Shown piece after piece: positions 3,124-17,062 of a stretch of 44,794 bases of DNA. This stretch comes from a virus, in the IMG/VR virus record IMGVR_UViG_3300008262_004551, positions 1 through 44,794 of that record, one strand, 5' to 3'. The notes under the pieces are model-generated. The model worked only from the letters and a program-made list of their open reading frames with translations. It was not told the DNA's origin and ran no database searches. The position numbers were made by a program, and so were the translations under genes. The number at the start of each line of letters is the position of its first letter. Positions within the stretch are counted from its first letter, which is position 1.

Positions 3124-3682
3124 AGATTTCGAAGAAGGTGATTATATACCTATTTATAATGAAGAAAATGAATTTATAACTGATGAACCAGATTCAATTG
3201 ATGATGATGATTTAGAATTTGATACAGAACTTTATTCTAGAAAAAAACCAAAAGTACCAAAAGAAAAATTCTATGTTGATCCTAAAAAGTTTGATGATGA
3301 AATTGTAAAATATTATGAAACTGATGTTATTTCTAATGAATTAGCCGAGATGATTAGTAAAATATCTAACAAATTAAGTTTTGCTGGAAATTTTTCTGGA
3401 TATACTTATAGAGAAGAAATGGTAGGCGATGGAATAGTTAGAATGTTCAAAGCATTGATATCAAAGAAATATAACAGAGAAAAAGGAACTAATCCATTTT
3501 CATATTTTACAAGAATAGCATTTAATGCATTTAGAAACAGAATTAAAAAAGAAAAAACTATTCATGATGCACATGAGAGATATCAACAAGAATATATGAT
3601 AATGACCGAAGGTTTTGCAAACCTTCTTAAAAATAATCAAACAAAAATAACAAAAGATAACGAAAACATAATAGATGATTAA
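3083..3682 (+). CDS. 55: Late-transcription sigma factor gp55
   Basis: The protein is 199 residues from the ATG at 3083, which follows an A-rich leader inside the end of uvsW; an upstream ATG at 3023 would add residues that only mirror the uvsW frame. gp55 directs host RNA polymerase to TATAAATA late promoters. The core is recognisable: NFSGYTYREEMVGDGIVRM followed by NPFSYFTRIAFNAFRNRIKK, both close to the T4 protein's sigma-2-like region. Odd points are an acidic N-terminal extension (about residues 15-55) and a C-terminus ending NENIIDD, with no copy of the LDFLYE-type clamp-binding tail of T4 gp55. The stop overlaps the start of gene 47. Confidence 0.88.
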   Translation: MKPKNTKSLKRKSKDFEEGDYIPIYNEENEFITDEPDSIDDDDLEFDTELYSRKKPKVPKEKFYVDPKKFDDEIVKYYETDVISNELAEMISKISNKLSFAGNFSGYTYREEMVGDGIVRMFKALISKKYNREKGTNPFSYFTRIAFNAFRNRIKKEKTIHDAHERYQQEYMIMTEGFANLLKNNQTKITKDNENIIDD

Positions 3683-4712
3683 TGTTTTAGATTCAAAAGT
3701 TGGATGTTTTTCAGATGTTCATATTGGTCTTTATCAGGACAGTCCAGTGTGGCATGATATATGTTTAGACTTTGCAAAAAACGTTTCTTCTTTTTATAAA
3801 AAAAATAAAATAAAACACATAATAATACCTGGAGATATATTTCATAATAGATCAGAAATATCTGTAAAAACAATACATACTGCTAAACTATTTTTTGATT
3901 ATTTTAAAGATTTTCATATTATTATATCAGCAGGAAATCATGATTCTTTTTTTAAAGAAAGATCCGATATAAATTCTATTAGTATTTTTGATGGATGGTC
4001 AAATATATCAATTGTTGATTTAAAACCATTGATATTAAATACAGAAGATAACAAAAAAAGTGTTTCATTTATTCCTTGGGGAACTTCTTGTTCAGACATT
4101 CCAAAAACAGATATATGTTTTGGCCATTTTGAGATAAACACGTTTTACATGAATACATATAAATCATGCGAAAAAGGAGAAGAATCAAAAAACTTATTAG
4201 AAAAAAGTAAATTCATAATATCTGGTCATTTTCATAAAAAGGACCATAGAAAATATAGCAATGGTCAAATATTATATGTAGGAAGTCCATATCAACATAA
4301 TTTTGGTGATTATGGTGATGATAGAGGTTTTTATATTATAGATTTAAATAAAGATAATTTTGAATTTTATAAAAACGATTTTTCTCCAAAGTTTGTAAAA
4401 TTAGATTCTACTTCTATGGATAAAGATAACATAGAAAATGATATTAAAAACAATTTTATATCATTAACATTAAATTCAAACGAGAGTGAACAAAAAATAA
4501 ACAATATTTTAAATAAAATACATTCATTCAAACCAAATAATATAAAAACAGAATATATCGATGTTACAGAAGTTAAAAATAACAATGAAAATCAATATGA
4601 TTCTGTTGACATACTCAAAAATATATATGATTATGTAGAAACATTGGATATTGACTGTAAAGAAGAAGTCGTTAATTATTTAACAGAAACATACAATAAA
4701 ACAAACAAATGA
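3675..4712 (+). CDS. 47: Recombination nuclease subunit gp47 (SbcD/Mre11-like)
   Basis: 345 residues, matching T4 gp47 (339). It is the metallophosphoesterase subunit that with gp46 resects DNA ends for recombination-dependent replication. Motifs: CFSDVHIGLY (Asp14, His16), IIPGDIFHNR (Asp54), SAGNHDSF (Asn88, His89, Asp90), a single His in CFGHFEIN (about 155) and ISGHFHKKD (about 183-186). All expected metal ligands appear intact. The start overlaps gene 55 by 8 nt. The stop overlaps the next gene as ATGA, yet that gene is a glycosyltransferase and the partner gene 46 begins only 9.2 kb further on. Confidence 0.93.
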   Translation: MINVLDSKVGCFSDVHIGLYQDSPVWHDICLDFAKNVSSFYKKNKIKHIIIPGDIFHNRSEISVKTIHTAKLFFDYFKDFHIIISAGNHDSFFKERSDINSISIFDGWSNISIVDLKPLILNTEDNKKSVSFIPWGTSCSDIPKTDICFGHFEINTFYMNTYKSCEKGEESKNLLEKSKFIISGHFHKKDHRKYSNGQILYVGSPYQHNFGDYGDDRGFYIIDLNKDNFEFYKNDFSPKFVKLDSTSMDKDNIENDIKNNFISLTLNSNESEQKINNILNKIHSFKPNNIKTEYIDVTEVKNNNENQYDSVDILKNIYDYVETLDIDCKEEVVNYLTETYNKTNK

Positions 4713-5458
4713 AAACAGGAATAGGAATATTAGATCTATATGATGATGATAGTTTAAAAGAATGTTTAAAAAACATTCCAGATAATTGTCACTTAACAGT
4801 AGTCAGTAACAGAAAAAATGGTTATAAAGACGAGAAAATAAATTCTTATATAAAAGTAGAAGATGTCTCGCTTGCTCATATGAGAAATTTAGTTTTACAT
4901 GATTTCAGAATACAAAATCTTGATTACTATTTTATTTTACATTCTGATCAAATTTTAAAAGATTCAAACATTTTTGAAAATACAATAAATTTATCAAAAA
5001 TATTTGGTACATGGTTTTTAACAGGACATGTTGATGATAAAACATTGGATATAGAAGATGATTCTGGTGTTGCTTTAAAACTATCAACAAAATTAAATAC
5101 AAAGTTTTTATTTACATTTAAAGGAATAATAAAAAACAATGGTTTCTTCGATGAAAGATACATAAACTCACATGATTTAGATGTTATTGATTATATCATT
5201 AGACTAAAACAAAAAAAATTATATGTTTCTGATGGTTTTTATCCAACAATTTCAACAGAAATTAAAGAAAACAAAAAAACAATAGAAAATTCATACATTC
5301 AAGACTATCCTAGTGAAGAATTATCTGTAAGGCACTCATATGGTTATTTCATGCACAAAAACCACTATATTCCAAACCACAGTGACCCAAAACCAAAACC
5401 ACAAGACGAAGTTTTAACTTCTGTTGAGTTTTTACAACAAAATTATGCAAAAAAATAA
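4709..5458 (+). CDS. GT-A-fold glycosyltransferase-like protein
   Basis: 249 residues. The order of elements fits a GT-A nucleotide-sugar-dependent transferase: an N-terminal beta-alpha start (GIGILDLYDD), then SLAHMRNLVLHDF where GT2 proteins place the A-R-N-x-G segment, then FILHSDQIL at the position of the D-x-D metal site (about residue 74-82, with a single clear Asp), then GFFDERYINSHDLDVIDYIIR where GT2 enzymes bind acceptor. The last 35 residues resemble the end of the next gene product (a Y-x-H/K, P-rich, Y-x-KK ending), suggesting tandem duplication. First gene of the glycan block; translationally coupled to gene 47 by an ATGA overlap. Donor and acceptor are unknown. Confidence 0.6.
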   Translation: MKTGIGILDLYDDDSLKECLKNIPDNCHLTVVSNRKNGYKDEKINSYIKVEDVSLAHMRNLVLHDFRIQNLDYYFILHSDQILKDSNIFENTINLSKIFGTWFLTGHVDDKTLDIEDDSGVALKLSTKLNTKFLFTFKGIIKNNGFFDERYINSHDLDVIDYIIRLKQKKLYVSDGFYPTISTEIKENKKTIENSYIQDYPSEELSVRHSYGYFMHKNHYIPNHSDPKPKPQDEVLTSVEFLQQNYAKK

Positions 5459-6308
5459 AATTGGTATAGGAATAATAACATGCAATAGACCAGATTATTT
5501 TAAGGAATGTCTTAAAAGCATCGATTATTCTTTAATTGATACTTTGGTTGTTGTAAATGACGGAAATGACCTGGATTCTGATACAAAAGAATACATTAAA
5601 TCTAAAAACATACATTATATATTAAACGAAAAAAACTTAGGTGTTAGTAAAACTAAAAACAAAGCACTAAAATATTTAATGAATAGTGATTGTGAACATA
5701 TTTTTCTCTTAGAGGACGATTGTGTTATAAAAAACAATGAAATATGGAAAAAATATATTGATGCTTACGAAACAACAGGAATTCCTCACTTTAACTATGG
5801 TCCAGCTAGTCCTTGGAATAGAAAACAAGATGATCCAACACTCATAGGTGATTTATCTAGAAGAAAAGACGCAAAACAAAACACAGAACCAAATCCTAGA
5901 TTAAAAATAGAACACAAGAATGGAATAACACTTTGTTTTTATGAACATATCGTAGCAATGTTTACTTATTTTCATAGATCTATAATAGAAAGGGTTGGTT
6001 ATTTAGATGAAACATTTTATAATGCATGGGAACATGTAGAACACACATATAGAATAATAAAAGCTGGTTTATATTCTCCATTTTGGTATTTTGCAGATAT
6101 AGAAAAAAGTGAAGATTATATAAAAGAAGCAGAAAATGAAAAGGCAAATACTTCTTTAGCTTCCAATGAAGAAAAATTTATGAAACAAGTCGTTGATGGA
6201 CTTCAACATTTTTATAAATTACATAACACAGTACCATCACAGATACAACCACCAACAAAACAACAAGTTATTGATGTTATAAAAGACATATATAACAAAA
6301 AACAATAA
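5445..6308 (+). CDS. Family 2-type glycosyltransferase
   Basis: 287 residues from the ATG at 5445; a TTG seven codons upstream is also open, but the ATG lies in the usual overlap (14 nt with the preceding gene). Clear GT2 start KIGIGIITCNRPDYFKECL, then VVNDGNDL, then NLGVSKTKNKALKYL, then LLEDDCVI as the acidic metal site (about residues 92-95), then GYLDETFYNAWEHVEHTYRI for the catalytic-base region. The family transfers a sugar from a nucleotide donor onto a glycan or other acceptor. Its C-terminal tail resembles that of the preceding gene product. Position inside a cotranscribed glycan block supports the role; sugar specificity cannot be read. Confidence 0.82.
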   Translation: MQKNKIGIGIITCNRPDYFKECLKSIDYSLIDTLVVVNDGNDLDSDTKEYIKSKNIHYILNEKNLGVSKTKNKALKYLMNSDCEHIFLLEDDCVIKNNEIWKKYIDAYETTGIPHFNYGPASPWNRKQDDPTLIGDLSRRKDAKQNTEPNPRLKIEHKNGITLCFYEHIVAMFTYFHRSIIERVGYLDETFYNAWEHVEHTYRIIKAGLYSPFWYFADIEKSEDYIKEAENEKANTSLASNEEKFMKQVVDGLQHFYKLHNTVPSQIQPPTKQQVIDVIKDIYNKKQ

Positions 6309-6312
6309 ATTT

Positions 6313-6879
6313 ATGCAACATATATATCAAAACATAGATGGATGGTTTTCTTTTCCTGGTTTATACTCAAATGTAGTAAAACTTTTTCCAGAAAACTCTC
6401 ATTTTGTAGAAATAGGAACATGGTATGGTAGAAGTGCTGCTTATATGGCAGTAGAAATAGCAAATTCCAATAAAAAAATTAAATTTGACTGTGTTGATAC
6501 TTGGGTAGGAAGTGATGAAGAAATTCATAAAAAAGAATTAGATGTTATAAACAATACTTTATATGAAAAATTTTTATCAAATATAGAACCTGTTAAAAAT
6601 TACATAAATCCAGTAAGAATGGAATCTCTAAAAGCGGTAGAATTATATAAAAATAATAGTTTAGATTTTGTTTTTGTAGATGCATCACATGATTATGAAA
6701 ACGTAAAAAAAGACATAGAAGCATGGTATCCTAAAGTTAAAAGCGGAGGAATACTGGCTGGACATGATTATGTTGATGTATGGAAAGGAGTCATACAAGC
6801 AGTTGATGAATTTTTAGAAAAAGAAAATTATAAATTAAATATAAAATCCGAGTTTTGTTGGGGTATTGTTAAAAGATAA
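6313..6879 (+). CDS. Class I SAM-dependent methyltransferase
   Basis: 188 residues. The glycine motif FVEIGTWYGRSAAYMA (about residues 31-46) is the SAM-binding motif I; CVDTWVGSD follows as the acidic loop after strand 2; LDFVFVDASHDYENVKKDI is motif IV with the HDYE ending typical of the Methyltransf_24 group, and SGGILAGHDYVDVWKGV completes the core. In glycan loci this type methylates sugars, and an O-methylated glycan is the natural inference from the flanking transferases. Starts 4 nt after the preceding stop and is followed at 1 nt by the next start, so it is in the same operon. Confidence 0.8.
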   Translation: MQHIYQNIDGWFSFPGLYSNVVKLFPENSHFVEIGTWYGRSAAYMAVEIANSNKKIKFDCVDTWVGSDEEIHKKELDVINNTLYEKFLSNIEPVKNYINPVRMESLKAVELYKNNSLDFVFVDASHDYENVKKDIEAWYPKVKSGGILAGHDYVDVWKGVIQAVDEFLEKENYKLNIKSEFCWGIVKR

Positions 6880-6880
6880 T

Positions 6881-7699
6881 ATGTCTAAAAATATAACATT
6901 TGTAACTCATTTAAGATATGATAGTCCAGACAGGCTAGATAATCTACAAACAGTAATAGATTATTATGGATATTACTTACCGGAAAGTAAGTTTATATTC
7001 GTAGAAGACGATATTGAACATAATAAGTCATTCGATTCAATTAAATGGAAAAAAGGAACTTCTTTTTATTTTTTAAAAAACGAAGGCGTTTATCATAGAA
7101 CCAAATCTTTAAACTATGGAATGAAACAAGCAAATACACCTGTGGTTGTTTCGTTAGACACCGACTGTATTGTTCCAATAGAATCAATAAAGACGTGTGA
7201 AGACAATCTTTTAACAGAAAGTGTGGTTGCATGGCCTTATAATGGATATTTTATTGATACTGATTACAATTTAAAAAAACAATTTATAGAAAATAATTTG
7301 AATTATAATATTTTCTTAAAAAGATTAGATGGTAAGTTAGAAATGTCTCTATCATCAATATATAATAACTGTTCTGTCAGATGTACAAACAAAGAACATC
7401 TTGGAACTGGTGGTATTGTAATGTTTAATAAAGATTCTTTTTTAAAATATGGTGGATATAACGAAAATTTTATAGGTTGGGGATGTGAAGATAATGAAAT
7501 AGTAGACAGAATGAATATATTAGAACAAAAAACATTCAGAGACACAAGAAAAGAATCTATATGCTTTCATTTGATACATTCAAACGCACAAAGAACAGAA
7601 AATCCATATTTTTTAAAAAATTCAAATATTCAACAAATTATAAAAAAAATGAATAAACAACAACTTTTACAACACATATCTACTTGGAATAATATATGA
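6881..7699 (+). CDS. GT-A glycosyltransferase, galactosyltransferase-like (GT7-type C domain)
   Basis: 272 residues from the ATG at 6881, one nt after the preceding stop; a TTG at 6866 would overlap but is less likely. Features: ITFVTHLRYDSPDRLDNL N-terminal strand, FVEDD, SLNYGMKQANTPVVVSLDTDCI containing a D-T-D metal site (about residues 90-92), and GGIVMFNKDSFLKYGGYNE followed by GWGCEDNEIVDRM. That G-W-G-x-E-D-x-E motif is characteristic of the beta-1,4-galactosyltransferase C-terminal domain and the related chondroitin polymerase type. Galactose or GalNAc transfer is plausible, not proved. The stop overlaps the fucosyltransferase start by ATGA. Confidence 0.78.
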   Translation: MSKNITFVTHLRYDSPDRLDNLQTVIDYYGYYLPESKFIFVEDDIEHNKSFDSIKWKKGTSFYFLKNEGVYHRTKSLNYGMKQANTPVVVSLDTDCIVPIESIKTCEDNLLTESVVAWPYNGYFIDTDYNLKKQFIENNLNYNIFLKRLDGKLEMSLSSIYNNCSVRCTNKEHLGTGGIVMFNKDSFLKYGGYNENFIGWGCEDNEIVDRMNILEQKTFRDTRKESICFHLIHSNAQRTENPYFLKNSNIQQIIKKMNKQQLLQHISTWNNI

Positions 7700-8514
7700 T
7701 AACAAATACAAATTTAGGAAAACATGGTGAATTTGGAAATCAATTATTTCAAATTTCTGCTGTTATAGGATGCGCATTAAAAAATAATACTGATTTTAAC
7801 TTTTTTAAATGGAAAGGTCTTATTTCAAATACAGAATATTCTAAATTTTTTAAAAATCCAATACCAGAAACTTTAGAAAAAAATATAAGTTTTAAATTTT
7901 ATTCAGAACCTAATTTTTATTATAACGAAATACCATATATAGAAAGTTTAAATTTAGATTTATTTGGATATTTTCAAAGTGAAAAATATTTTTCTCATTG
8001 TAAAAAAGAAATTAAAAATTACTTTAAACCATCTAATCTAATATTAGATAAAATTAAAAACTTAGATTATAAAAATACTGTTTGTATACAACTTAGGTTT
8101 TATGATAGTTCAAGACAATATGGTTTTAATCATATAAAAAATGACCCAGTTTTATATGGAGATACATATTATACAGTAGAAGATAATATTCCTTTTTTGA
8201 AAAACGCAATAAATTTTTTTGGGAAAAATAAAAACTATTTTGTAACAACAAATAACTTTAATAAAGCAAAAGAAATGTTTTCAATTTATCCTAATTTTTA
8301 TTTTTTAGAAAAATATACATATCTCGAACAATTTTTTATTCAAACAATGTGTGAGCATAATATTATTACCAATTCATCTTTTGGATGGTGGGGTGCTTGG
8401 TTGAATCAGAACCCAAACAATATTGTATTTGCACCATCAAATTGGTTTAAACCAAACTATAAAAATAAAGAAGCTACTAAAGATTTATACCCCAATGAAT
8501 GGAGGGTTTTATAA
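7696..8514 (+). CDS. GT11 alpha-1,2-fucosyltransferase-like protein
   Basis: 272 residues, within the usual GT11 range. The N-terminal GEFGNQLFQISAVIGCAL matches the G-x-x-G-N-Q-x-F-Q signature of the family. VCIQLRFYDSSRQYG (about residues 129-143) sits where GT11 enzymes have the H-x-R-R-x-D-Y donor-binding motif, keeping Arg and Asp but not His. The C-terminal NSSFGWWGAWLNQNPNNIV, followed by APSNWF, is the other strong family signature. GT11 enzymes use GDP-fucose and add alpha-1,2-fucose to galactose, the step that makes H-type structures. No GDP-fucose synthesis gene is visible here, so donor would come from the host or from genes elsewhere. The stop overlaps the next ATG as TAATG. Confidence 0.87.
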   Translation: MITNTNLGKHGEFGNQLFQISAVIGCALKNNTDFNFFKWKGLISNTEYSKFFKNPIPETLEKNISFKFYSEPNFYYNEIPYIESLNLDLFGYFQSEKYFSHCKKEIKNYFKPSNLILDKIKNLDYKNTVCIQLRFYDSSRQYGFNHIKNDPVLYGDTYYTVEDNIPFLKNAINFFGKNKNYFVTTNNFNKAKEMFSIYPNFYFLEKYTYLEQFFIQTMCEHNIITNSSFGWWGAWLNQNPNNIVFAPSNWFKPNYKNKEATKDLYPNEWRVL

Positions 8515-9404
8515 TGAAAAGTTTGGTTACTGGTGGTTGTGGATTTATAGGAAGTCGTTTAGTTGAAAGACTTATTAAAAATAAAGATGATGTTATTGTA
8601 ATAGATAATAATTCATCTAATAATGATAATAATTTTATTGTTGATGGAGCAAAATATTATAATATAGATTTAAATGATTTTGAAAAAATTTTACCTTTAT
8701 TTAAAGGTGTTGATAGAGTTTTTCATTTAGCAGCAGATGTATCTATAGATTTTTGTAACAAGAATCCTAGAACATCAGGAATAAACAATTCCAATATAAC
8801 ATTAAATACATTGGAATGTTGTAGATTACATAATGTTAAAAAATATGTTTTTTCTTCTACATCTGCTGTTTATTTAAACAAACAAGAAAAAACCGCATAT
8901 AAAGAAACAGACGAAACCGAGCCTTTAAATTTATATTCAGCATCAAAATTATTTGGAGAAAATTTATGTAAAATATATTATAATTTGTATGGGGTAGAGA
9001 CTGTTATACTAAGATATTTTAATGTTTTTGGTCCTTCAATGAACATAAGTCCTTATTCATCTGTTATTGTGAATTTTTTAAATGCAAAAAAATACAAAAA
9101 ACCACTATCTATTCATGGTACAGGAGAACAAACAAGAGATTTTGTTTTTATTGATGATGTAGTTAGTGCTAATATTCTAGCCTCTCAGACACAACTTAAA
9201 AAATATGGTTCAATATTTAATGTTGGAACAGGAAAATCTTTAACTATAAATAAATTATCAAAAATAATATCAAAAGAACGAGTTTTCTTAAATCCAAGAA
9301 AAGCTGACATAAAACACAGCTTATCTAGTATAAAAAAAATAAAAAAAGAATTAAATTGGAAACCGACAATTACAATTGAAATTTGGTTAAAACAAAATAA
9401 TTAA
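8514..9404 (+). CDS. NAD-dependent sugar-nucleotide epimerase/dehydratase (GalE-like)
   Basis: 296 residues from the ATG at 8514, preceded by a clear Shine-Dalgarno (GGAGGG at 8501-8506); an in-frame ATG at 8499 lies before that site and is rejected. Extended short-chain dehydrogenase fold: VTGGCGFIGSRLVERL (residues 5-20) binds NAD, FHLAADVSI follows, SSTSAVY carries the catalytic Ser/Thr, and Tyr141-x3-Lys145 in YSASK is the catalytic pair. LRYFNVFGP and GTGEQTRDFVFIDDV are typical of UDP-glucose 4-epimerases and relatives. It would supply a nucleotide sugar such as UDP-galactose to the adjacent transferases. It is slightly short of the usual 310-340 residues at the C-terminus. Confidence 0.87.
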   Translation: MKSLVTGGCGFIGSRLVERLIKNKDDVIVIDNNSSNNDNNFIVDGAKYYNIDLNDFEKILPLFKGVDRVFHLAADVSIDFCNKNPRTSGINNSNITLNTLECCRLHNVKKYVFSSTSAVYLNKQEKTAYKETDETEPLNLYSASKLFGENLCKIYYNLYGVETVILRYFNVFGPSMNISPYSSVIVNFLNAKKYKKPLSIHGTGEQTRDFVFIDDVVSANILASQTQLKKYGSIFNVGTGKSLTINKLSKIISKERVFLNPRKADIKHSLSSIKKIKKELNWKPTITIEIWLKQNN

Positions 9405-9409
9405 AAATT

Positions 9410-10015
9410 ATGTTAAATATAGGCTTATTGATAATAGCGACCAATAAATACGTTGATTTTTTAGATCCTTTGTTAAAAAGCGCAGATCAATATTTTTTAA
9501 AAACACATAATGTAACATATTTTATTTTTACAGATAAAGATATATCTAAATTATACTCAACTAGAAAAATTGTAAAAATTGAAACACAACACAAACAATG
9601 GCCTTGGATGACATTAGGTAGATATAAAATTTTTCATGAAAATAAACAAGATTTATCACAAATGAATTATCTTTATTATTGTGATGTTGATATGAGATTT
9701 GTTGATAATATTGGAGAAGAAATATTAAGTGATAGAGTAGCAACGCAACATCCCTATCAGGGCGGAAAGAGGGGAACACCAGAAACAAATCCTAATTCAT
9801 TAGCATGTGTTCATCCGCATGAGAATATGGAATATTTTGCCGGTGGATTTAATGGTGGAACATCAGAAGAATATTTAAAAATGGCAAACTCTATTTCAAA
9901 AAACATTGAAATAGATTATAATAATGGTATCATAGCAATTGCAGAGGAATTGAATATTCCTTATCCTAAAAAATTACTAGCCTTACAAAAAAATCACAAC
10001 AATCTAAGAATATAA
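9410..10015 (+). CDS. GT6 (ABO-type) glycosyltransferase, internally shortened
   Basis: 201 residues; family members usually have about 230 or more in the catalytic domain. Hallmarks: NIGLLIIATNKYVDFLDPLL start, WPWMTLGRYKIFHE, YYCDVDMRFVDNIGEEIL with a D-V-D metal site at residues 92-94, ATQHPY, and EYFAGGFNGGTSEEYLKM. GT6 enzymes add alpha-1,3-Gal or GalNAc to fucosylated or plain galactose, as in the human A and B antigens. After GIIAI (about residue 177) the family normally continues with a W-H-D-E/Q-S segment needed for catalysis and a S-P-x-Y stretch; here the sequence jumps to EELNIPYPKKLLALQKNHN, which matches the family's C-terminal end. An in-frame loss of roughly 25 residues is inferred, so activity is doubtful. 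Confidence 0.8.
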   Translation: MLNIGLLIIATNKYVDFLDPLLKSADQYFLKTHNVTYFIFTDKDISKLYSTRKIVKIETQHKQWPWMTLGRYKIFHENKQDLSQMNYLYYCDVDMRFVDNIGEEILSDRVATQHPYQGGKRGTPETNPNSLACVHPHENMEYFAGGFNGGTSEEYLKMANSISKNIEIDYNNGIIAIAEELNIPYPKKLLALQKNHNNLRI

Positions 10016-10045
10016 TTATTAGCAAAATGTTTAATATATAAAAAA

Positions 10046-10702
10046 ATGAAAAAAGGAGTAATAGTTTATCATAATAACATAGATAATCTTTACCCAAAAA
10101 GATGGGTAGATAAATCAATTAATTCAATGATTAATCAATCAGATAATGATTTTATTTTTTATGAATTAAATTATGAAGGTAAAAATAATTCCGTTATTCC
10201 TACCGATAACAAACTTTTTTGGTCAAAAAAATTATTAAATTATGCAGAAGCTATGAATTTTTTATTAGATCGAGCCTTTGAGGATAATTGTGAATATGTC
10301 TTTAATACAAACTTAGATGATTTTTATGATTTAAAAAGAATAGAACTTCAATTAGATTTAATAATAAAAAATAATTTACATTTAGTTAGTAGTGATTTTT
10401 GTTATGTGGAAGAAAAACAAAACGCAAATCAATATGAAGATGTTATAACAAAAATTTTAAATATTACAAAATATGATATTAAAAAAAATCTTGATATTAG
10501 ACATAATGTAATTGCTCATCCGGCAGTATGTTATAGTAAAAAATTTTGGAATGATAACAGTAACAGATATAATATAAACAAAACACCAGAAGAAGACTTG
10601 GATTTATGGATACGATCCATAAATAAAGGTTATCGATTTGGAATTCATGAAAAAGTCTTGTTATATTATAGAATACACACTAATCAAGTTAGTAATAAAT
10701 GA
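10046..10702 (+). CDS. GT2-like glycosyltransferase
   Basis: 218 residues. The sequence has the parts of a small GT-A enzyme: VIVYHNNI start, WVDKSINSMINQSDNDFIFYELNY, then LNYAEAMNFLLDRAFEDN where GT2 proteins carry the A-R-N-x-A helix, then FNTNLDDFYDLKRIELQL with the acidic pair at the metal site (about residues 94-95), then PEEDLDLWIRSINKGYRFG as the E/D-D acceptor motif. The C-terminal LLYYRIHTNQVS is a common ending of GT2 proteins. A 30-nt spacer separates it from the GT6 gene, one of the wider gaps in the block; the stop overlaps the next gene by ATGA. Specificity unknown. Confidence 0.76.
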   Translation: MKKGVIVYHNNIDNLYPKRWVDKSINSMINQSDNDFIFYELNYEGKNNSVIPTDNKLFWSKKLLNYAEAMNFLLDRAFEDNCEYVFNTNLDDFYDLKRIELQLDLIIKNNLHLVSSDFCYVEEKQNANQYEDVITKILNITKYDIKKNLDIRHNVIAHPAVCYSKKFWNDNSNRYNINKTPEEDLDLWIRSINKGYRFGIHEKVLLYYRIHTNQVSNK

Positions 10703-11352
10703 ATATAAAACAATTTATCAATACAAATTTAAATAAAGATTGTGTTTTTTTTGAAATTGGTTCTCATTTTGGAACTGATACTAAAGAATTTCTAAAAATA
10801 ACTAATAAATTACATTGTTTTGAACCAGATCCAAGAAATATAAAAATATTTAAAAATTTAAATTTACCAGTTAACTTAAATGAATTCGCAATTTCAGACA
10901 AAGATGGTGTATGTGAATTTTATCAATCCAATGGAAATGTATATGAATCTAAATATGGACCAACTGATAATGAATTAATTAATAAAAATGACTGGTCGGC
11001 TTCTTCGTCTTTAAAAAAACCTAAAAACCATATAGTAAAAACACCATGGGTAAAATTTGATAACGTTATTGAAATAAAAACAAAAAGATTAGATACGTAT
11101 TGTAAACAAAACAATATTTCAAAAATTGATTTTGTTTGGATGGATGTTCAAGGTGCTGAATTAGATATTATACGAGGAATGGGTGATTTTATTAAAAAAA
11201 TTCACTATATTTATACAGAATATAGTGATGAAGAATTATATGAAAATCAAGGTAATAAGGATCAGATAATAAAATTACTCGGAATTGATTGGGAAGTTGT
11301 ATTTGATTTTGGTGGAGATGTTCTTTTAAAGAATAAAAATTATTTTATATGA
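10699..11352 (+). CDS. FkbM-family methyltransferase
   Basis: 217 residues. VFFEIGSHFGTDTKEFL (about residues 16-32) is SAM motif I, HCFEPDPRNIKIFKNL contains the E-P-D-P variant of the strand-2 acidic residue typical of the FkbM family, and DFVWMDVQGAELDIIRGM (about 145-162) is the diagnostic FkbM motif, with the D-V-Q-G-A-E core. FkbM enzymes O-methylate small molecules and sugar hydroxyls and are common in surface glycan loci. ATGA overlaps on both sides fix it within the glycan operon. The middle part (about 80-130) is lysine-rich and less conserved. Confidence 0.85.
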   Translation: MNIKQFINTNLNKDCVFFEIGSHFGTDTKEFLKITNKLHCFEPDPRNIKIFKNLNLPVNLNEFAISDKDGVCEFYQSNGNVYESKYGPTDNELINKNDWSASSSLKKPKNHIVKTPWVKFDNVIEIKTKRLDTYCKQNNISKIDFVWMDVQGAELDIIRGMGDFIKKIHYIYTEYSDEELYENQGNKDQIIKLLGIDWEVVFDFGGDVLLKNKNYFI

Positions 11353-12029
11353 TATCAGTAACAATACCAACATATGAAATGAACGGTACTGGTTGTTTTT
11401 TTCTTGATAAAAGTTTTCAATTTTTAGAAAAACAAACATTTAAAGAATTTGAAATAGTAATTTCAGATCATAGTTATAATGATGATATAATGAATTTATG
11501 TTTAAAATTTAATAACTTAAACATAAAATATATAAAAAATGAAAAAAAACGTGGAAATTCTTCTGCAAATTTGAATAACGCAATTTATAATTCAAATTTT
11601 GATATCATAAAAATTTTAATGCAGGACGAATATATTTTTAAAGAAAATACTCTTTTTGAAATAAATGAATGTTTTTCATGTAAAAACACCAATTGGGTTG
11701 CTACTGGTTTTTTTAATGGTAATTTTAACTGTAAAATGATTCCTTATTATGATGATTATAAAGTTATACATGGTCATAATCCAATAGGAAGTCCTAGTAT
11801 AATTTCTATAAGGAAAACACAAAATTTAGAAATATTCAATGAAGATTTAATATGGTTAATGGACTGTGAATATTATAAAAGATTATTTGATAAGTGGGGA
11901 CAGCCTAAAATAATAAATGACTATAAAATTTTTATAAACCACCATCAGAACCAGCTTACAAATATTATAAAGGATGAAATAAAACAAAAAGAACATTTGT
12001 TTTTAAAGAAAAAATATGACAAGAACTGA
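11349..12029 (+). CDS. GT2 family glycosyltransferase
   Basis: 226 residues. Canonical GT2 opening ISVTIPTYEMNG, then LEKQTFKEFEIVISDHSYND, where the D-H-S replaces the usual D-D-G/S, then NEKKRGNSSANLNNAI for the nucleotide-binding helix, then IIKILMQDEYIF, where the D-x-D site is reduced to a Q-D-E (about residues 93-95). The C-terminal half contains DLIWLMDCEYYKRLFDKWG, the usual E/D-D-x-x-x-x-R acceptor region. The altered metal site is seen in many functional GT2 members, so activity is not excluded. It overlaps the next gene by 14 nt and the previous by ATGA. Confidence 0.82.
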   Translation: MISVTIPTYEMNGTGCFFLDKSFQFLEKQTFKEFEIVISDHSYNDDIMNLCLKFNNLNIKYIKNEKKRGNSSANLNNAIYNSNFDIIKILMQDEYIFKENTLFEINECFSCKNTNWVATGFFNGNFNCKMIPYYDDYKVIHGHNPIGSPSIISIRKTQNLEIFNEDLIWLMDCEYYKRLFDKWGQPKIINDYKIFINHHQNQLTNIIKDEIKQKEHLFLKKKYDKN

Positions 12030-12603
12030 TATAATTAATAAATTAATAAAAAAGAATAACTATAAAACCTATTTAGAAATAGGTGTAAATACTCCAAACC
12101 AGCCGGGTTATAATTGGATTAATGTTGATGTCCAATTAAAACATGGGGTTGATCCAAACGTTGATACTACATATAAAGTAACTTCTGATGTTTTTTTCGA
12201 AAAATATATACCTCATAAATATGATTTAATTTTTGTTGATGGTTTACATACATTTGAACAGTCTTATAAAGATATTATAAATTCTTTAGCTTTTTTAAAC
12301 GAAAACGGAACAATAGTTGTTCATGATTGTAATCCTATAAACGAAATATCTCAACGACCAATAAGAGAATCTAATGAGTGGAATGGAGATGTATGGAAAT
12401 CTATATTAAAACTAAGATTAGAAAATAAAGATTTACAAATATATACAGTAGACACTGATTATGGCTGTTCTGTTATTAAAAAGGGGAGACAAGACTTACT
12501 AAAGCCTGAAAATAATATGTATGATTATTTTTATTTTGAAAAAAATAAAAATAAAATATTAAATCTAATATCAGTAAATGAATTTATTTTAAAATTTGTT
12601 TAA
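12016..12603 (+). CDS. Class I SAM-dependent methyltransferase
   Basis: 195 residues. YLEIGVNTPNQPG (about residues 20-32) is a motif I of the E-I-G-x-x type; NVDVQLKHGVDPNVDTTYKVTSD replaces the usual acidic loop, and YDLIFVDGLHTFEQSYKDI is motif IV with the D-G-L-H-x-x-E-Q signature of Methyltransf_24 sugar-type enzymes. ENGTIVVHDCNPINE matches the next strand, with the H-D-C-N-P pattern seen in that group. The family methylates sugars or other small molecules; the acceptor here is presumably part of the same glycan. Overlaps the preceding glycosyltransferase by 14 nt and is followed 12 nt later by the GT10 gene. Confidence 0.82.
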   Translation: MTRTDIINKLIKKNNYKTYLEIGVNTPNQPGYNWINVDVQLKHGVDPNVDTTYKVTSDVFFEKYIPHKYDLIFVDGLHTFEQSYKDIINSLAFLNENGTIVVHDCNPINEISQRPIRESNEWNGDVWKSILKLRLENKDLQIYTVDTDYGCSVIKKGRQDLLKPENNMYDYFYFEKNKNKILNLISVNEFILKFV

Positions 12604-12615
12604 TTTTATAAAAAA

Positions 12616-13449
12616 ATGAAAACTATATCTTTTAAAAATTTTTGGAGTGGATTCGATTATACACAGCATTCAGCATTTAATTGGATTGTTGATATTTACA
12701 AATTAAATGTTGTAAAAAATAATGCTGATATTGTTGTTTATTGTACTTTTGGAGATTATATTGATGATTCTTATAGTCATACGAAAGTATTTTTTACAGG
12801 AGAACAGATTAAGCCTGATTTAAGTATATATGATTTCTCTTTTTCTTTTGAACATATGGATAATCCTAGAAATTTTAGATTTCCTTTATATTTGTGGCAT
12901 CATGAAAATTATTTTTCATTAAAAACCAGACCCCAAAAAAACTGGGCTATAGAAAAAACAAAATTTTGCAATTTTTTATATGGTAATGGAAATGAATCCA
13001 TGGATGGTGTAAAAAAAAGAATTTGGTTTTTTAAAGAGTTACAAAAATATAAACACATAGATTCTGCTGGTTTAGTTTGTAATAATACAGGATATCGTAT
13101 ACCCGAAGATAAAAAAGTAGAATGGTTAAAGGATTATAAATTTACTATAGCTTTTGAAAATCAACAGCACTCTGGATATACAACTGAAAAACTTATTCAA
13201 CCTTTAATTGCAGGATCTTTGCCTATATATTATGGAAATAATACAGTTTATAAAGACTTTAATACAAAATCATTTATAAACACACATGATTATAATAATT
13301 TAGAAGAAGTTATAAGTAAAATAATTGAATTAGATTCAGATGATGATTCATATAATCATATAATGAATCATCCTGTTCTTTTAGAACCATTACCAGAATG
13401 GACATCTAAAAATTGGTATATTAATTGTTGGGATAAAATTATAAAATGA
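12616..13449 (+). CDS. GT10 alpha-1,3/1,4-fucosyltransferase-like protein
   Basis: 277 residues, the size of a soluble bacterial GT10 domain. Family features: the opening FKNFWSGFDY, a two-lobed layout with FSFEHMDNPRNFRFPLYLW in the first lobe, FCNFLYGNGNESMDGVKKR at the start of the second, then the donor-binding block YKFTIAFENQQHSGYTTEK (about residues 174-192) with LIAGSLPIYYG. The F-E-N and T-E-K elements bind GDP-fucose in GT10 enzymes. GT10 adds alpha-1,3 or 1,4-fucose to GlcNAc, forming Lewis-type structures. With the GT11 gene upstream, this phage has two different fucosyltransferase families in one operon. The stop overlaps the start of the frameshifted methyltransferase by ATGA. 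Confidence 0.9.
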   Translation: MKTISFKNFWSGFDYTQHSAFNWIVDIYKLNVVKNNADIVVYCTFGDYIDDSYSHTKVFFTGEQIKPDLSIYDFSFSFEHMDNPRNFRFPLYLWHHENYFSLKTRPQKNWAIEKTKFCNFLYGNGNESMDGVKKRIWFFKELQKYKHIDSAGLVCNNTGYRIPEDKKVEWLKDYKFTIAFENQQHSGYTTEKLIQPLIAGSLPIYYGNNTVYKDFNTKSFINTHDYNNLEEVISKIIELDSDDDSYNHIMNHPVLLEPLPEWTSKNWYINCWDKIIK

Positions 13450-13933
13450 ATGTAAACTGTTTTTAGAAACAGGTACTTATAAAGGTGATGGTGTTCAGTG
13501 GGGATTAGATAACAATTTTTCTAGAATATATTCTGTTGAATTAGATAAAAAACTTTACGAATATTCTAATAATCGTTTTCTTAATAACAACAATGTTAAA
13601 ATTTCGTGCTGCGATACACTACATTTTTTAAAAACAGTAATACCTACGATAAAAGTTTCTAGTTTAATTTATTTAGATGCTCATATAAGCGGGGGTGATT
13701 CTTCTCATAATCCAAATCATCCAGTTCCACTTAAACAAGAATCAGAAATTATACTTAATATGTTTTTTGATATAACGAAATTAATAGTTGTGATTGATGA
13801 TGTTAGATTGTGGAAAAATCAATTAATTAATGATTTAATAAGTTTATATAAAAATAAAAAAATGGAAGCGTCTTATATAGATGATTCTATAGTTTTTTGT
13901 AATAAAAATTTTCTTATAAATGAAGAAAATTAA
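13446..13933 (+). pseudogene. Methyltransferase-like gene with a frameshift at codon 6
   Basis: This stretch looks empty if only ATG-initiated frames are considered. The ATG at 13446, in the same ATGA overlap used by its neighbours, opens MNVNCF and meets TAG at 13464-13466. Moving back one base in the T5 run at 13460-13464 gives a continuous frame FLETGTYKGDGVQWGLDN to a stop at 13931-13933, about 162 residues in total. That frame carries a motif I-like E-T-G-T-Y-x-G-D-G, SVELDKKLYEYS, and SSLIYLDAHISGGDSS with conserved D-x-H, all typical of small SAM methyltransferases of sugar loci. A one-base deletion in the T run, natural or from sequencing, is the simplest reading. The end overlaps gene 46 by 14 nt. 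Confidence 0.78.
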
Positions 13934-15725
13934 TTTTAAAAATATTTCCATTCAAAATTTTCTGTCTGTTGGTAATGAATGTTTAAAATTAAATTTTAAA
14001 AGTGGAATTTCTCTTATAACAGGAGTTAATAAAGACAAAGACAGTAAAAACGGATGTGGTAAAACCACTATTTTAGATGCTTTATATTGGGCTATTTTTG
14101 GAAATACTATTAGAGACATAAAAAAAGATAAAATTGTTCATGATCATTCTAAGGAAACATGTTCAGTAGATTTAGAATTTGATATAATAGGATTGGACGG
14201 AAGTGTTGTAGAATATAAGATTGAAAGAACATTAAATCCAAGTAAGGTTCATTTATATAAGAAGGAAGTTGATACCACCTACTCTACTATTCAAAAAACA
14301 GACGAAGCCATCCTAGAGCTTATGGGAGCTAATGAAGAGTTGTTTAGAAACTCAGTGATAATGTCATTAGACAATACTCTTCCTTTCATGGCTCAAAAGA
14401 AAGTTGAAAAAAGAAAATTTATTGAAGGTATTTTACAGATTAATATTTTTAGTGACATGTTATTGAAAGTAAGGTCTGATTATAACGAAAATAAAAAAAA
14501 CTTTGAAATTTTAACAAATAAATTTACAGAAAAGCAAAAGACAATTTCCTTTTTTGAAGAACAAAAAAGGAAAAATGAAGAAATCAAAAAACAAAAAATA
14601 GAAATTCTTCAAAATAAAATAAAAGAAAATGAAGAAAAACTAAAAACTAATGAAAATAAAAATTTATTAGATGCAAAATCTAAAATAGAAGAATCTTTAA
14701 AGAAAACAGAAGATGCTATAATTAAAATAGAAGATAAAATAAATAAAACATCCGATTCTTTAATGGAATTTACTAAAAAAGAAGCGAAATTTCATACTGA
14801 AATAGAAAATATAGATAAACAAATAAATTGTTTTAAAAATAAAACAGGAAATTGTCCAACATGTAAAAGAAAACTATCAGATGAAGATGATTCTTCTATA
14901 GAAACTCATATAAAGGTATTATTAGAAGAGAAAAACACAAAAAAACAAGAATTTGATCTTGTTTCTAGTAAGAGACATCAGATTTCAAAAGATAAAATTG
15001 AATTACAAAAGAAAAAGAAAGAATTAGAAGATCTTTTTAAGTTATTAAACCAAAAAATAATAAAAATAGAATCTCTTATAAAAGAAAATTGTAATATAAA
15101 CGAAAAAAACAACGAGTTAAAAACTTCTATAAACAATATTTTAGAAGAAAAGGACTATACACAAGATAAAATTCAAGAAATTTGTGAAGAAACAAAGTTA
15201 TTGGAGGAAACATTAACAAATGAAAAGAAAAATATTACAATTCTTCAAAACTCTAAGAATATTTTATCTGAAGAAGGTGTAAAGACGTATATAATAAAAA
15301 AACTTTTAGTATTGTTAAATAATAAACTAAACTATTATTTGAAAAAGCTAGAAGCACCATGTACTTGTGTTTTTGATGAAATGTTCGAAGAGACAATTAT
15401 CAATGAAAATAATAAAGAATGTTCATATTTCAATTTTAGTGGAGGAGAAAGAAAGAGAATAGATCTTGCTATTATTTTTACTTTCCAAGACATATTAAAA
15501 TCACAGGCTGGTGTATTCTATTCTTTAAATATGTATGATGAATTGTTTGATTCAGCATTAGATGAACTAGGTTCAAGTAAAGCAATAGAGGTTTTAAAAG
15601 AAAATGCAGAAAAATATGATCAATCTATATATATTATATCACATAACTCGTCTGTTTCTAAAAATAATATAGATAATATTATAGAACTAGAAAAATTAAA
15701 TGGAAAAACAAAAATAATAAGTTGA
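13920..15725 (+). CDS. 46: Recombination nuclease ATPase subunit gp46 (SbcC/Rad50-like)
   Basis: 601 residues; T4 gp46 has 560. It is the ABC-type ATPase that with gp47 resects DNA ends. Walker A is NGCGKTT at about residues 44-50, in a longer loop than usual. Long coiled-coil arms rich in Lys and Glu (about 170-300 and 325-460) flank a CPTC zinc hook at about residue 310. The ABC signature FSGGERKRIDLAI is at about 503-515, followed by MYDELFDSALDELG (Walker B and D-loop) and IYIISHNSS (H-loop His). All catalytic elements are present. It is placed far from gene 47 because of the glycan block between them. Its TGA stop lies within a TTGATT box that looks like the -35 of the next promoter. Confidence 0.94.
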   Translation: MKKINFKNISIQNFLSVGNECLKLNFKSGISLITGVNKDKDSKNGCGKTTILDALYWAIFGNTIRDIKKDKIVHDHSKETCSVDLEFDIIGLDGSVVEYKIERTLNPSKVHLYKKEVDTTYSTIQKTDEAILELMGANEELFRNSVIMSLDNTLPFMAQKKVEKRKFIEGILQINIFSDMLLKVRSDYNENKKNFEILTNKFTEKQKTISFFEEQKRKNEEIKKQKIEILQNKIKENEEKLKTNENKNLLDAKSKIEESLKKTEDAIIKIEDKINKTSDSLMEFTKKEAKFHTEIENIDKQINCFKNKTGNCPTCKRKLSDEDDSSIETHIKVLLEEKNTKKQEFDLVSSKRHQISKDKIELQKKKKELEDLFKLLNQKIIKIESLIKENCNINEKNNELKTSINNILEEKDYTQDKIQEICEETKLLEETLTNEKKNITILQNSKNILSEEGVKTYIIKKLLVLLNNKLNYYLKKLEAPCTCVFDEMFEETIINENNKECSYFNFSGGERKRIDLAIIFTFQDILKSQAGVFYSLNMYDELFDSALDELGSSKAIEVLKENAEKYDQSIYIISHNSSVSKNNIDNIIELEKLNGKTKIIS

Positions 15726-15760: not shown

Positions 15761-17062
15761 ATGGCATTAAAAATAAAAAATTCTAATGAAGAAGAAAGCA
15801 GAGTAACTTATGGTTATGAATCTGTAAATGTACCAGTTCCTTTTGCTCCGACAGGAACTCATAAAAACCTTTTAAATCAATTTTATATAAAGTTAGTTCC
15901 TATTAAAATACCTCCAGTATCTCCTGTAGAGATGCCAGAAGCGAATTTACCTAGAGTTTTAAATTATTATGCTGATTATGGTGGTTGTGGTCACTGGAGA
16001 ATGATCTGGCCTGAGTTTTTACTAAATTTCTCACAGAGGGCGGTTTGTTCTGGAATGACTCAAATGATATTAGATCTTAGATTTTATCAAAATATCAAAG
16101 CAATAAGATTCCAAAGACAAGCAACTGAAAGTCAACTCTCCTTTATAAGAGAGTTGCATAAAGTAAAAAACAATTTTGGGTTAAAATTAATGTATGAAGT
16201 AGATGATGTTGTTTTTAAAGAAGACATTCCAGATTATAATAGATGTAAAGATGCGTTTAATGATGATAAAATAGTAAAAAATATTTTAGAAATTATAAAT
16301 CTTATGGATGAAATGACAGTAACGTGTCAATTCATGAAAGATTATTATATCGAAAAAACTGGAAATAAAAAAATAACAGTAATACCAAACTATGCTCCCA
16401 AGTTTTGGTTAGATAGGTTCTATAAAAAGGATGTAATTCTTAAAAATTACGAAAAAAACAAAAAACGTCCAAGAATTTTATATGCTGGTTCTGGAACTCA
16501 TATAGACGTATTGAATAGAACCGGAATGAAAGACGATTTTCATCATGTTATTGATGAAATTATTAAAGCAAGAAAGAAATTTAAGTTTGTATGGAAAGGA
16601 TGTTATCCACTAGCATTAAAACCATTCATTGATAATGGAGAAATGGAATATGTTGGATGGTCTTCTTTGTTAGATTATCCACAAGATTTATGGAATACCA
16701 ATTGTAATGCTACATTTGCCCCATTAACCGATAATAATTTCAATTATTCAAAGAGCAATATAAAAATGATAGAAGCTGGAGCATTAGGATTGCCTGGAAC
16801 ATATCAGGATATGTGTACATATGAATTAGCTAAAAATAAATTTAAAAATGGAAAAGATCTAATTTCACAATTAGAATATATAACATCAGACTGTGATAGA
16901 TATATGAAAGAATCAGAAAATGCTAGAAGTTTTGCTGAAACGATGTGGTTAGAAGATCACATGGATAATTACGAAGGTCTATATCTCACAGCTTGGGGGT
17001 CTAAAGAAAGAAATGAAAAATATCCTGAGCTTATAAAGTTAAATCCAGATCAAAAAATTTGA
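15761..17062 (+). CDS. GT4-like glycosyltransferase next to the DNA polymerase gene
   Basis: 433 residues. The protein has a Rossmann-type layout suggesting a GT-B enzyme: an N-terminal lobe with NLPRVLNYYADYGGCGHWRM, AIRFQRQATESQL and MYEVDDVVF, then TVIPNYAPKFW at the lobe junction, then RPRILYAGSGTHIDVL opening the donor-binding lobe, EYVGWSSLLDYP, and NYSKSNIKMIEAGALGLPG, which has the E-x-x-x-x-G-x-P-x pattern of GT4 donor sites. It stands alone, separated by gene 46 from the glycan block, with its own promoter, so it may be an older part of the phage core with a different job. A local inverted repeat occurs at 16133-16156. Acceptor unknown; DNA, protein and cell-surface glycans remain possible. 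Confidence 0.75.
   Translation: MALKIKNSNEEESRVTYGYESVNVPVPFAPTGTHKNLLNQFYIKLVPIKIPPVSPVEMPEANLPRVLNYYADYGGCGHWRMIWPEFLLNFSQRAVCSGMTQMILDLRFYQNIKAIRFQRQATESQLSFIRELHKVKNNFGLKLMYEVDDVVFKEDIPDYNRCKDAFNDDKIVKNILEIINLMDEMTVTCQFMKDYYIEKTGNKKITVIPNYAPKFWLDRFYKKDVILKNYEKNKKRPRILYAGSGTHIDVLNRTGMKDDFHHVIDEIIKARKKFKFVWKGCYPLALKPFIDNGEMEYVGWSSLLDYPQDLWNTNCNATFAPLTDNNFNYSKSNIKMIEAGALGLPGTYQDMCTYELAKNKFKNGKDLISQLEYITSDCDRYMKESENARSFAETMWLEDHMDNYEGLYLTAWGSKERNEKYPELIKLNPDQKI

Follow-up and report, generated by a model that had tools for sequence, protein, structure and literature searches.

Gene content of the gp47–gp46 interval

The DNA analysed here, hereafter the window, is a 44.8-kb fragment (44,794 nucleotides) of an uncultured T4-like phage from IMG/VR (record IMGVR_UViG_3300008262_004551), in which a cassette of glycosyltransferase (GT) and methyltransferase genes lies between gp47 and gp46. 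The affiliation with T4-like phages, proposed in the initial annotation, was borne out by the core genes, since UvsY, a helicase, the late sigma factor gp55, gp47, gp46, PolB, UvsX and the terminase were all recognisable. The constant left flank of the cassette is gp47, an SbcD-like nuclease subunit (3675..4712; PHROG 100, 4e-61), and the constant right flank is the SbcC-like gp46 (13920..15725; PF13476 7e-18; boundaries by blastn); both are encoded on the + strand, as are all window features given below. The interval between them holds 12 same-strand open reading frames plus one disrupted frame. The block had been delimited as 4709-13933; its start was correct, and its true end is 13919, because gp46 begins at 13920. 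Description of the block as a cotranscribed run was accurate as to layout, and we infer cotranscription because the genes lie on one strand and overlap or are at most about 30 bp apart. Consensus promoter and terminator scans of the window gave results near chance level and were uninformative at 25% GC, and no tRNAs were found in the window.

The cassette opens with GT2a (4709..5458), a GT-A-fold glycosyltransferase-like protein with a weak match to PHROG 2456 (5e-6) and none in Pfam. Its AlphaFold model (pLDDT, predicted local distance difference test, 89) had GT-A glycosyltransferases as the top Foldseek matches (template modelling score, TM, ~0.5); these structural matches, to chondroitin polymerase, TarP and WrtF, were modest. 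The second gene encodes the GT2 glycosyltransferase GT2b (5448..6308; PF00535 2e-9; PHROG 2456 3e-35), and the third the S-adenosylmethionine (SAM) methyltransferase MT24a (6313..6879; PF13578 2e-20). These are followed by a GT7C/GT2-type glycosyltransferase with the beta-4-GalT-like C-terminal motif GWGCED (6881..7699; PF02709 4e-12), which matched beta-1,4-GalT structures weakly, by a GT11-like glycosyltransferase (7696..8514; PF01531 4e-11, 43 bits versus a cut-off of 23.9) and by a GalE-like nucleotide-sugar epimerase (8514..9404; PF01370 2e-51). The solved structures nearest to the epimerase were UDP-glucose 4-epimerases, its score against TIGR01179 being 151 bits, below the 262-bit cut-off. 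Next comes an ABO-type GT6 with a DXD motif and an internal in-frame loss (9410..10015; PF03414 3e-26, 93 bits, positions 75-261 of the 313 of the profile).

The right-hand part of the cassette comprises the GT2-like GT2c (10046..10702; PF00535 at 0.01 only, with 65% and 64% identical counterparts in the related contigs L044 and L060), an FkbM-family methyltransferase (10699..11352; PF05050 7e-20; TIGR01444 above cut-off), the GT2 glycosyltransferase GT2d (11349..12029; PF00535 4e-6), the methyltransferase MT24b (12016..12603; PF13578 2e-9) and a GT10 alpha-1,3/4-fucosyltransferase-like protein (12616..13449). The last frame, a fourth methyltransferase (13450..13919), is disrupted at its 5' end: it has no ATG, GTG or TTG start and is shifted relative to an ATG that overlaps the GT10 stop. 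It was recognised by tblastn (1e-7) against a methyltransferase of contig L002, which likewise sits after GT6-GT10.

Pfam, PHROG and NCBIfam profile searches of the block products thus agreed with the proposed GT11, GT6, GT10, GT7C, epimerase and GT2-like (four genes, GT2a to GT2d) families, with GT11, GT10 and GT6 remaining where they had been placed. Of the four methyltransferases claimed, three are intact, and the fourth is present in frame-disrupted form. Chance was excluded for these calls because of the E-values and of the collinear sister cassette of L044, all ten genes of which are shared with the window.

A fixed site for interchangeable cassettes

What the initial annotation had overlooked is that a single fixed site houses many interchangeable cassettes, of which the block is one. 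Relatives were retrieved with gp46, PolB, gp47 and GT4x, a conserved glycosyltransferase encoded between gp46 and PolB, as queries, and contigs with a gp47 at least 45% identical were taken as the clade of the window. Within this clade, the gp47–gp46 gap was 5.7-9.5 kb in every measured contig but L078 (51 bp). The gap of the L060 contig was 11.7 kb, and about 18 related contigs bear sugar cassettes of 5.7-11.7 kb at this position. Outgroup gaps, in contrast, were 0-18 bp in 29 loci and -6 bp in the isolate C48C1; in L034/L035 the gap was 488 bp. Given these near-zero distances in outgroups as against kilobases in the clade, the simplest reading would be that gp47 and gp46 were ancestrally adjacent and that their junction is an insertion site. 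Two outgroup contigs, L087 and L091, have 7.2- and 9.0-kb gp47–gp46 cassettes with GT11 and GT10, which look independently acquired. By eye, these two intervals (L087:7308-14508, L091:4282-13266) also include a HAD-like phosphatase, a kinase-like protein and a nucleotidyltransferase-isomerase fusion-like protein.

Cassettes are replaced almost wholesale between close relatives, phages whose replication proteins are 90-95% identical. Contigs L029 and L027 encode proteins that are 92% (PolB), 96% (UvsX), 90% (GT4x) and 81% (gp47) identical, and none of the nine L029 cassette proteins had a relative in L027. The edges are sharp: the L027/L029 alignment (85% DNA identity) restarts 2 bp upstream of the gp46 start codon, and that of L013/L029 (92% DNA identity over 11.8 kb) restarts 8 bp upstream of it. 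At 40% identity, 218 cassette proteins fell into 100 clusters, 57 of them singletons, in a set of 21 loci plus the window that includes two near-duplicate locus pairs and the two outgroup cassettes. The only near-constant genes were GT2a (19 of 22 cassettes) and GT2b (20 of 22). In several cassettes GT2b is fused to a methyltransferase-like domain (e.g., L044:11781-13217 and L060:11805-13250), pointing to a coupling of transfer and methylation.

The cassette type of the window is shared with L044 and, for seven genes, with L060. The GT10 and the broken methyltransferase are absent from the L044 cassette, and they were apparently added later to the right end of the window cassette. MT24a, third in the window cassette, has relatives (58-66% identical) directly before gp46 in L014, L015, L016, L022 and L027, a difference in position that would be a sign of internal reshuffling.

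With regard to content, the families most often found among 117 cassette proteins scanned with Pfam were GT2, MT24, FkbM, epimerases, GT11, GT7C, GT25 and GT6. Coding density was near 1. A hydropathy scan found one hydrophobic stretch in each of 3 of 206 cassette proteins and no transmembrane segment in those of the window. GtrA, GtrB or other Gtr-type membrane proteins were absent from the cassettes, as were membrane flippases and polymerases of the Wzy type.

Co-occurrence of GT11, GT6 and GT10

The full set of GT11, GT6 and GT10 had been presented as not known elsewhere. Uniqueness of the trio was rejected, because profiles built in this analysis found it in four further IMG/VR contigs, namely L003, L060 (one contig with L161 and L204, counted once), L233 and L274. 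The claim did stand for the nine reference records tested, none of which has GT6 and GT10 together. P-SSM2, S-CAM9 and B23 have annotated clusters with GT11 and GT6, while those of S-SKS1 and S-SCSM2R contain GT10. Across 98 viral GT6 loci, GT11 accompanied GT6 in 81 and GT10 did so in 12.

Beside gp46, the L060 cassette also encodes GMD together with two proteins recognised by eye, one short and DegT-like, the other resembling hexapeptide acetyltransferases. No GDP-fucose synthase was detected beside GMD in L060 or in the other relatives checked, and the L060 cassette may yield an amino sugar instead of fucose.

Integrity of the blood-group-type enzymes

The GT10 of the window scored 75 bits against PF00852 (6e-21; cut-off 23.9) and 62 bits against the FucT N-terminal domain PF18025 (9e-17; cut-off 27.2), and it matched the H. 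pylori FucT at 4e-26. The residues aligned with E95, R195, Y246, E249 and K250 of that enzyme, which we take to be its GDP-fucose contacts, are E63, R135, Y188, E191 and K192 in the window protein, and they were invariant in seven relatives. The GT10 therefore looks intact by sequence and is a predicted fucosyltransferase.

Motif I of GT11 enzymes is HxRRxD, which binds the phosphates of GDP-fucose. An alignment with 11 phage GT11 proteins showed that the window protein has QLRFYD at this position. The same motif is found in L044 and in one of the two GT11 proteins of L060 (L060a), L020 has QMRFYD, and the second L060 protein (L060b) has the canonical form HVRRGD. Because the variant is kept in these relatives, the window GT11 is, judging from the alignment, part of a divergent, conserved subfamily whose donor is not to be assumed. 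Sequence searches detected no solved homologue that would offer a donor site for structural comparison.

The GT6 matches ABO transferases at 1e-23 and has the motif DVD. In phage GT6 proteins this motif reads DVD, DAD or DSD, i.e., the DXD type of the vertebrate enzymes; most bacterial GT6 proteins have NXN instead (PMC3961637). An alignment query retrieved more than 300 GT6 relatives from IMG/VR, whereas a single-sequence query, the patterns of which fell in variable parts, retrieved none. The window protein has lost about 28 residues in frame, including the catalytic WHDESH and the C-terminal segment that follows. It reads ...NGIIAI-AEELN..., where all nine aligned relatives, the L044 orthologue (62% identical) among them, keep the WHDESH segment in between. 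W.DE was kept in 105 of 107 viral GT6 frames from the 98 loci, some of which overlap on the same contigs; the exceptions were the frame of the window and one truncated at the end of its contig. Residue numbering equates the missing glutamate with Glu192 of BoGT6a, and the E192Q variant of that enzyme has 4x10^-5 of activity left (PMC3961637). A simple frameshift was rejected, because the WHDESH segment is absent from the other two frames and the loss is in frame. The lesion may be a real deletion or an assembly error, the sequence being compatible with both.

The initial annotation had envisaged a blood-group-like set. In a pathway of this kind, GT11 would form an H-type fucosyl-galactose, GT6 would add GalNAc or Gal, and GT10 would give a Lewis branch. 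All three families are indeed present in the window, L060 and three other contigs have the trio with an intact GT6, and GT11 and GT6 are probably functionally linked, because GT11 was found in so many of the GT6 loci. A working route from H through A/B to Lewis was nevertheless not supported, because the window GT6 lacks its catalytic segment, the GT11 lacks HxRRxD, and neither GMD nor a GDP-fucose synthase is encoded in the window, a fragment of the genome, in whose block the GalE-like protein is the only nucleotide-sugar enzyme. The lack of a GDP-fucose synthase beside GMD in relatives also speaks against it, and membership in these families fixes neither donor nor linkage. We regard such a pathway as highly improbable.

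A conserved glycosyltransferase and the probable acceptor of the glycan

GT4x (15761..17062; PHROG 7162) is a conserved core GT-B glycosyltransferase that lies outside the variable region. It was present in every clade relative checked and in many outgroups; clade members share 60-92% identity, against about 40-45% for most outgroups lacking a cassette. The best PDB folds for its AlphaFold model (pLDDT 82.6) were the GT4 enzymes BshA, MshA and PimB'. Among isolates, only distant matches in Streptomyces phages were found, and a GTDB scan returned only a contig of a Verrucomicrobia metagenome-assembled genome (39%) and a distant match in Roseovarius, too little to name a host.

Decoration of phage DNA, one of the options raised initially, has in its favour that the genes lie among replication genes, that T4 glycosyltransferases act on hydroxymethylcytosine, and that GT4x is distantly similar in fold to viral proteins that carry the annotation DNA alpha-glucosyltransferase. 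We consider it very improbable, because members of the thymidylate synthase/dCMP hydroxymethylase family (PF00303) were found in none of 10 and none of 17 related records, two overlapping sets that together make up 20-odd records, several of them about 200 kb long; the window itself is a fragment. Moreover, the best folds of GT4x are ordinary GT4 enzymes with no DNA glycosyltransferase among the top 50 PDB matches, and about ten different enzymes plus methyltransferases far exceed what a base modification would need. A search for TET/JBP proteins was uninformative, as the controls gave no match.

Membrane proteins being so scarce, and given the conservation of GT4x and the position of the genes in the replication operon, we lean towards an acceptor in the cytosol, which would be a virion protein, although the sequence is compatible with a host-surface target as well. 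We give nearly even chances to a reading in which the cassette forms the variable portion of a locus for a phage glycan, most likely one carried by a virion protein. From the gene content, we infer the order of steps, sugars, acceptor and function as follows. GT4x, GT2a and GT2b would probably begin or lengthen a common core attached to an acceptor inside the cell. The exchangeable genes would then attach sugars specific to each phage type, drawn from host nucleotide sugars and from those remodelled locally by the GalE-like epimerase in the window or by GMD in some relatives, and the methyltransferases would probably trim or cap the glycan. Soluble cytosolic enzymes, expressed with the replication genes, would do this work, so that with a virion protein as the most likely acceptor the phage would wear a strain-specific glycan coat. 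Cassettes would be exchanged by recombination across the conserved gp47/GT2a and gp46 flanks.

The window has apparently lost the transfer by GT6 and one of the methylations, which would leave a truncated L044-type glycan plus a GT10 residue. The lesions would produce a truncated glycan variant by analogy with chlorovirus capsid glycosylation, in which a conserved core carries variable decorations and broken glycosyltransferase genes give viable antigenic variants (PMC5408694). More tentatively, and short of even chances, the site may be a dedicated glycotype locus. Its single replaceable cassette, housed among the replication genes of the operon, would let soluble enzymes give each phage lineage its own virion glycan on a conserved core, swapping and gene breakage would provide antigenic or adsorption-type variation, and the locus would be a phage counterpart of O-antigen loci and of chlorovirus capsid glycosylation.

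Several points weigh against a virion glycan. Acceptor and glycan are predictions from the genes, and the clade lacks both an isolate in collections and a known host. Soluble glycosyltransferases could equally use lipid-linked host sugars at the inner membrane, with the flippase and ligase of the host, and the hydropathy scan is compatible with peripheral membrane association. Glycosyltransferase islands of pelagimyophages and cyanophages have, in addition, been interpreted as host-surface modifiers (PMC7029224), and cyanophage lipopolysaccharide (LPS) clusters have been raised as possible stuffer DNA (PMC3037559).

The first of these published interpretations, the usual one for pelagimyophage islands (PMC7029224), would have the cassette alter host LPS, O-chain or capsule during infection in order to block competitors or match a surface type, its diversity mirroring serotypes. 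The families resemble O-antigen enzymes, some cassettes encode GMD or other sugar-nucleotide enzymes, and cytosolic enzymes acting on lipid-linked sugars require no transmembrane helices. We hold this to be the close rival of the virion reading and somewhat less likely than it, as the cassettes contain no gtr-type membrane protein and their 206 scanned proteins essentially no transmembrane segment, the genes lie inside a replication operon and not by the tail fibres as in pelagimyophages, and the linked GT4x is constant across phages whose cassettes differ. A further reading, which the stuffer-DNA proposal and the broken GT6 and methyltransferase of the window might favour, is that a recombination hotspot collects cargo that is mostly neutral and serves no consistent function. 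It is very unlikely in view of the presence of cassettes in nearly all clade members, their high coding density, their content of almost only sugar genes and the intact state of the conserved frames in relatives.

If the glycan is indeed on the virion, some lytic phages would carry whole exchangeable sugar coats, and the reading of phage host range, adsorption and mutual exclusion in metagenomes would change. The idea of a glycan coat is testable because the site is fixed and its edges are sharp, and one conserved gp47–gp46 primer pair could type many phages. For glycan synthesis, the locus also offers a large number of natural variants of GT6, GT10, GT11 and methyltransferases.

Comparison with known glycan loci

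The hypervariable glycan cassette locus at the gp47–gp46 junction of this uncultured T4-like clade is a variant of known phage glycan clusters. No description of a cassette site at this junction was found in the searchable papers, which leaves the absence of an earlier description unproven. The T4-like cyanophages P-SSM2, S-SSM7, S-SM2, S-CAM9 and B23 similarly encode GT11 and GT6 with epimerases and GT2 enzymes in one run, and large LPS clusters of such phages have been described (PMC3037559). Their clusters, however, lie near hli03/phoH and tRNAs rather than between gp47 and gp46, and GT10 does not accompany GT6 in those records that were tested. The Synechococcus phages S-SKS1 and S-SCSM2R have GT10 in a glycan cluster, which in S-SKS1 includes GMD and GDP-fucose synthase and in S-SCSM2R several GT11 genes, but neither genome has a GT6, and the clusters are located elsewhere than at gp47–gp46. 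The hypervariable host-recognition island of pelagimyophages is likewise a glycosyltransferase-rich, non-syntenic region at a fixed position in T4-like phages; it is found between VrlC and gp14, in the structural region and together with tail fibres (PMC7029224), whereas the window cassette is inside a recombination/replication operon and contains almost only sugar genes.

Outside the T4-like phages, the chlorovirus PBCV-1 also has virus-encoded glycosyltransferases, a core with variable decorations and a GMD pathway (PMC5408694); it differs in being a eukaryotic virus with scattered genes and a proven acceptor, where the acceptor of the window cassette is predicted. Bacterial O-antigen loci share the constant flanks and the variable centre of glycosyltransferases, sugar-nucleotide enzymes and modifying enzymes, but no flippase, polymerase or ligase was seen in the cassette, which has essentially no membrane proteins. 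The window GT6 resembles human ABO and BoGT6a in its ABO match and DXD motif, and differs from them in lacking the segment equivalent to the Glu192 region of BoGT6a.

Other insertions in related contigs

Sugar genes also insert elsewhere in the replication region. In the outgroup contig L096 (16714-19614), RmlD-like and DegT-like genes, recognised by eye, occupy the PolB-UvsX interval. Finally, an insertion of about 1 kb interrupts PolB in L018 (2476-6041), L031 (180-3748) and L037 (10001-13555) after some 116-118 matched residues, which suggests an intron or a homing element.

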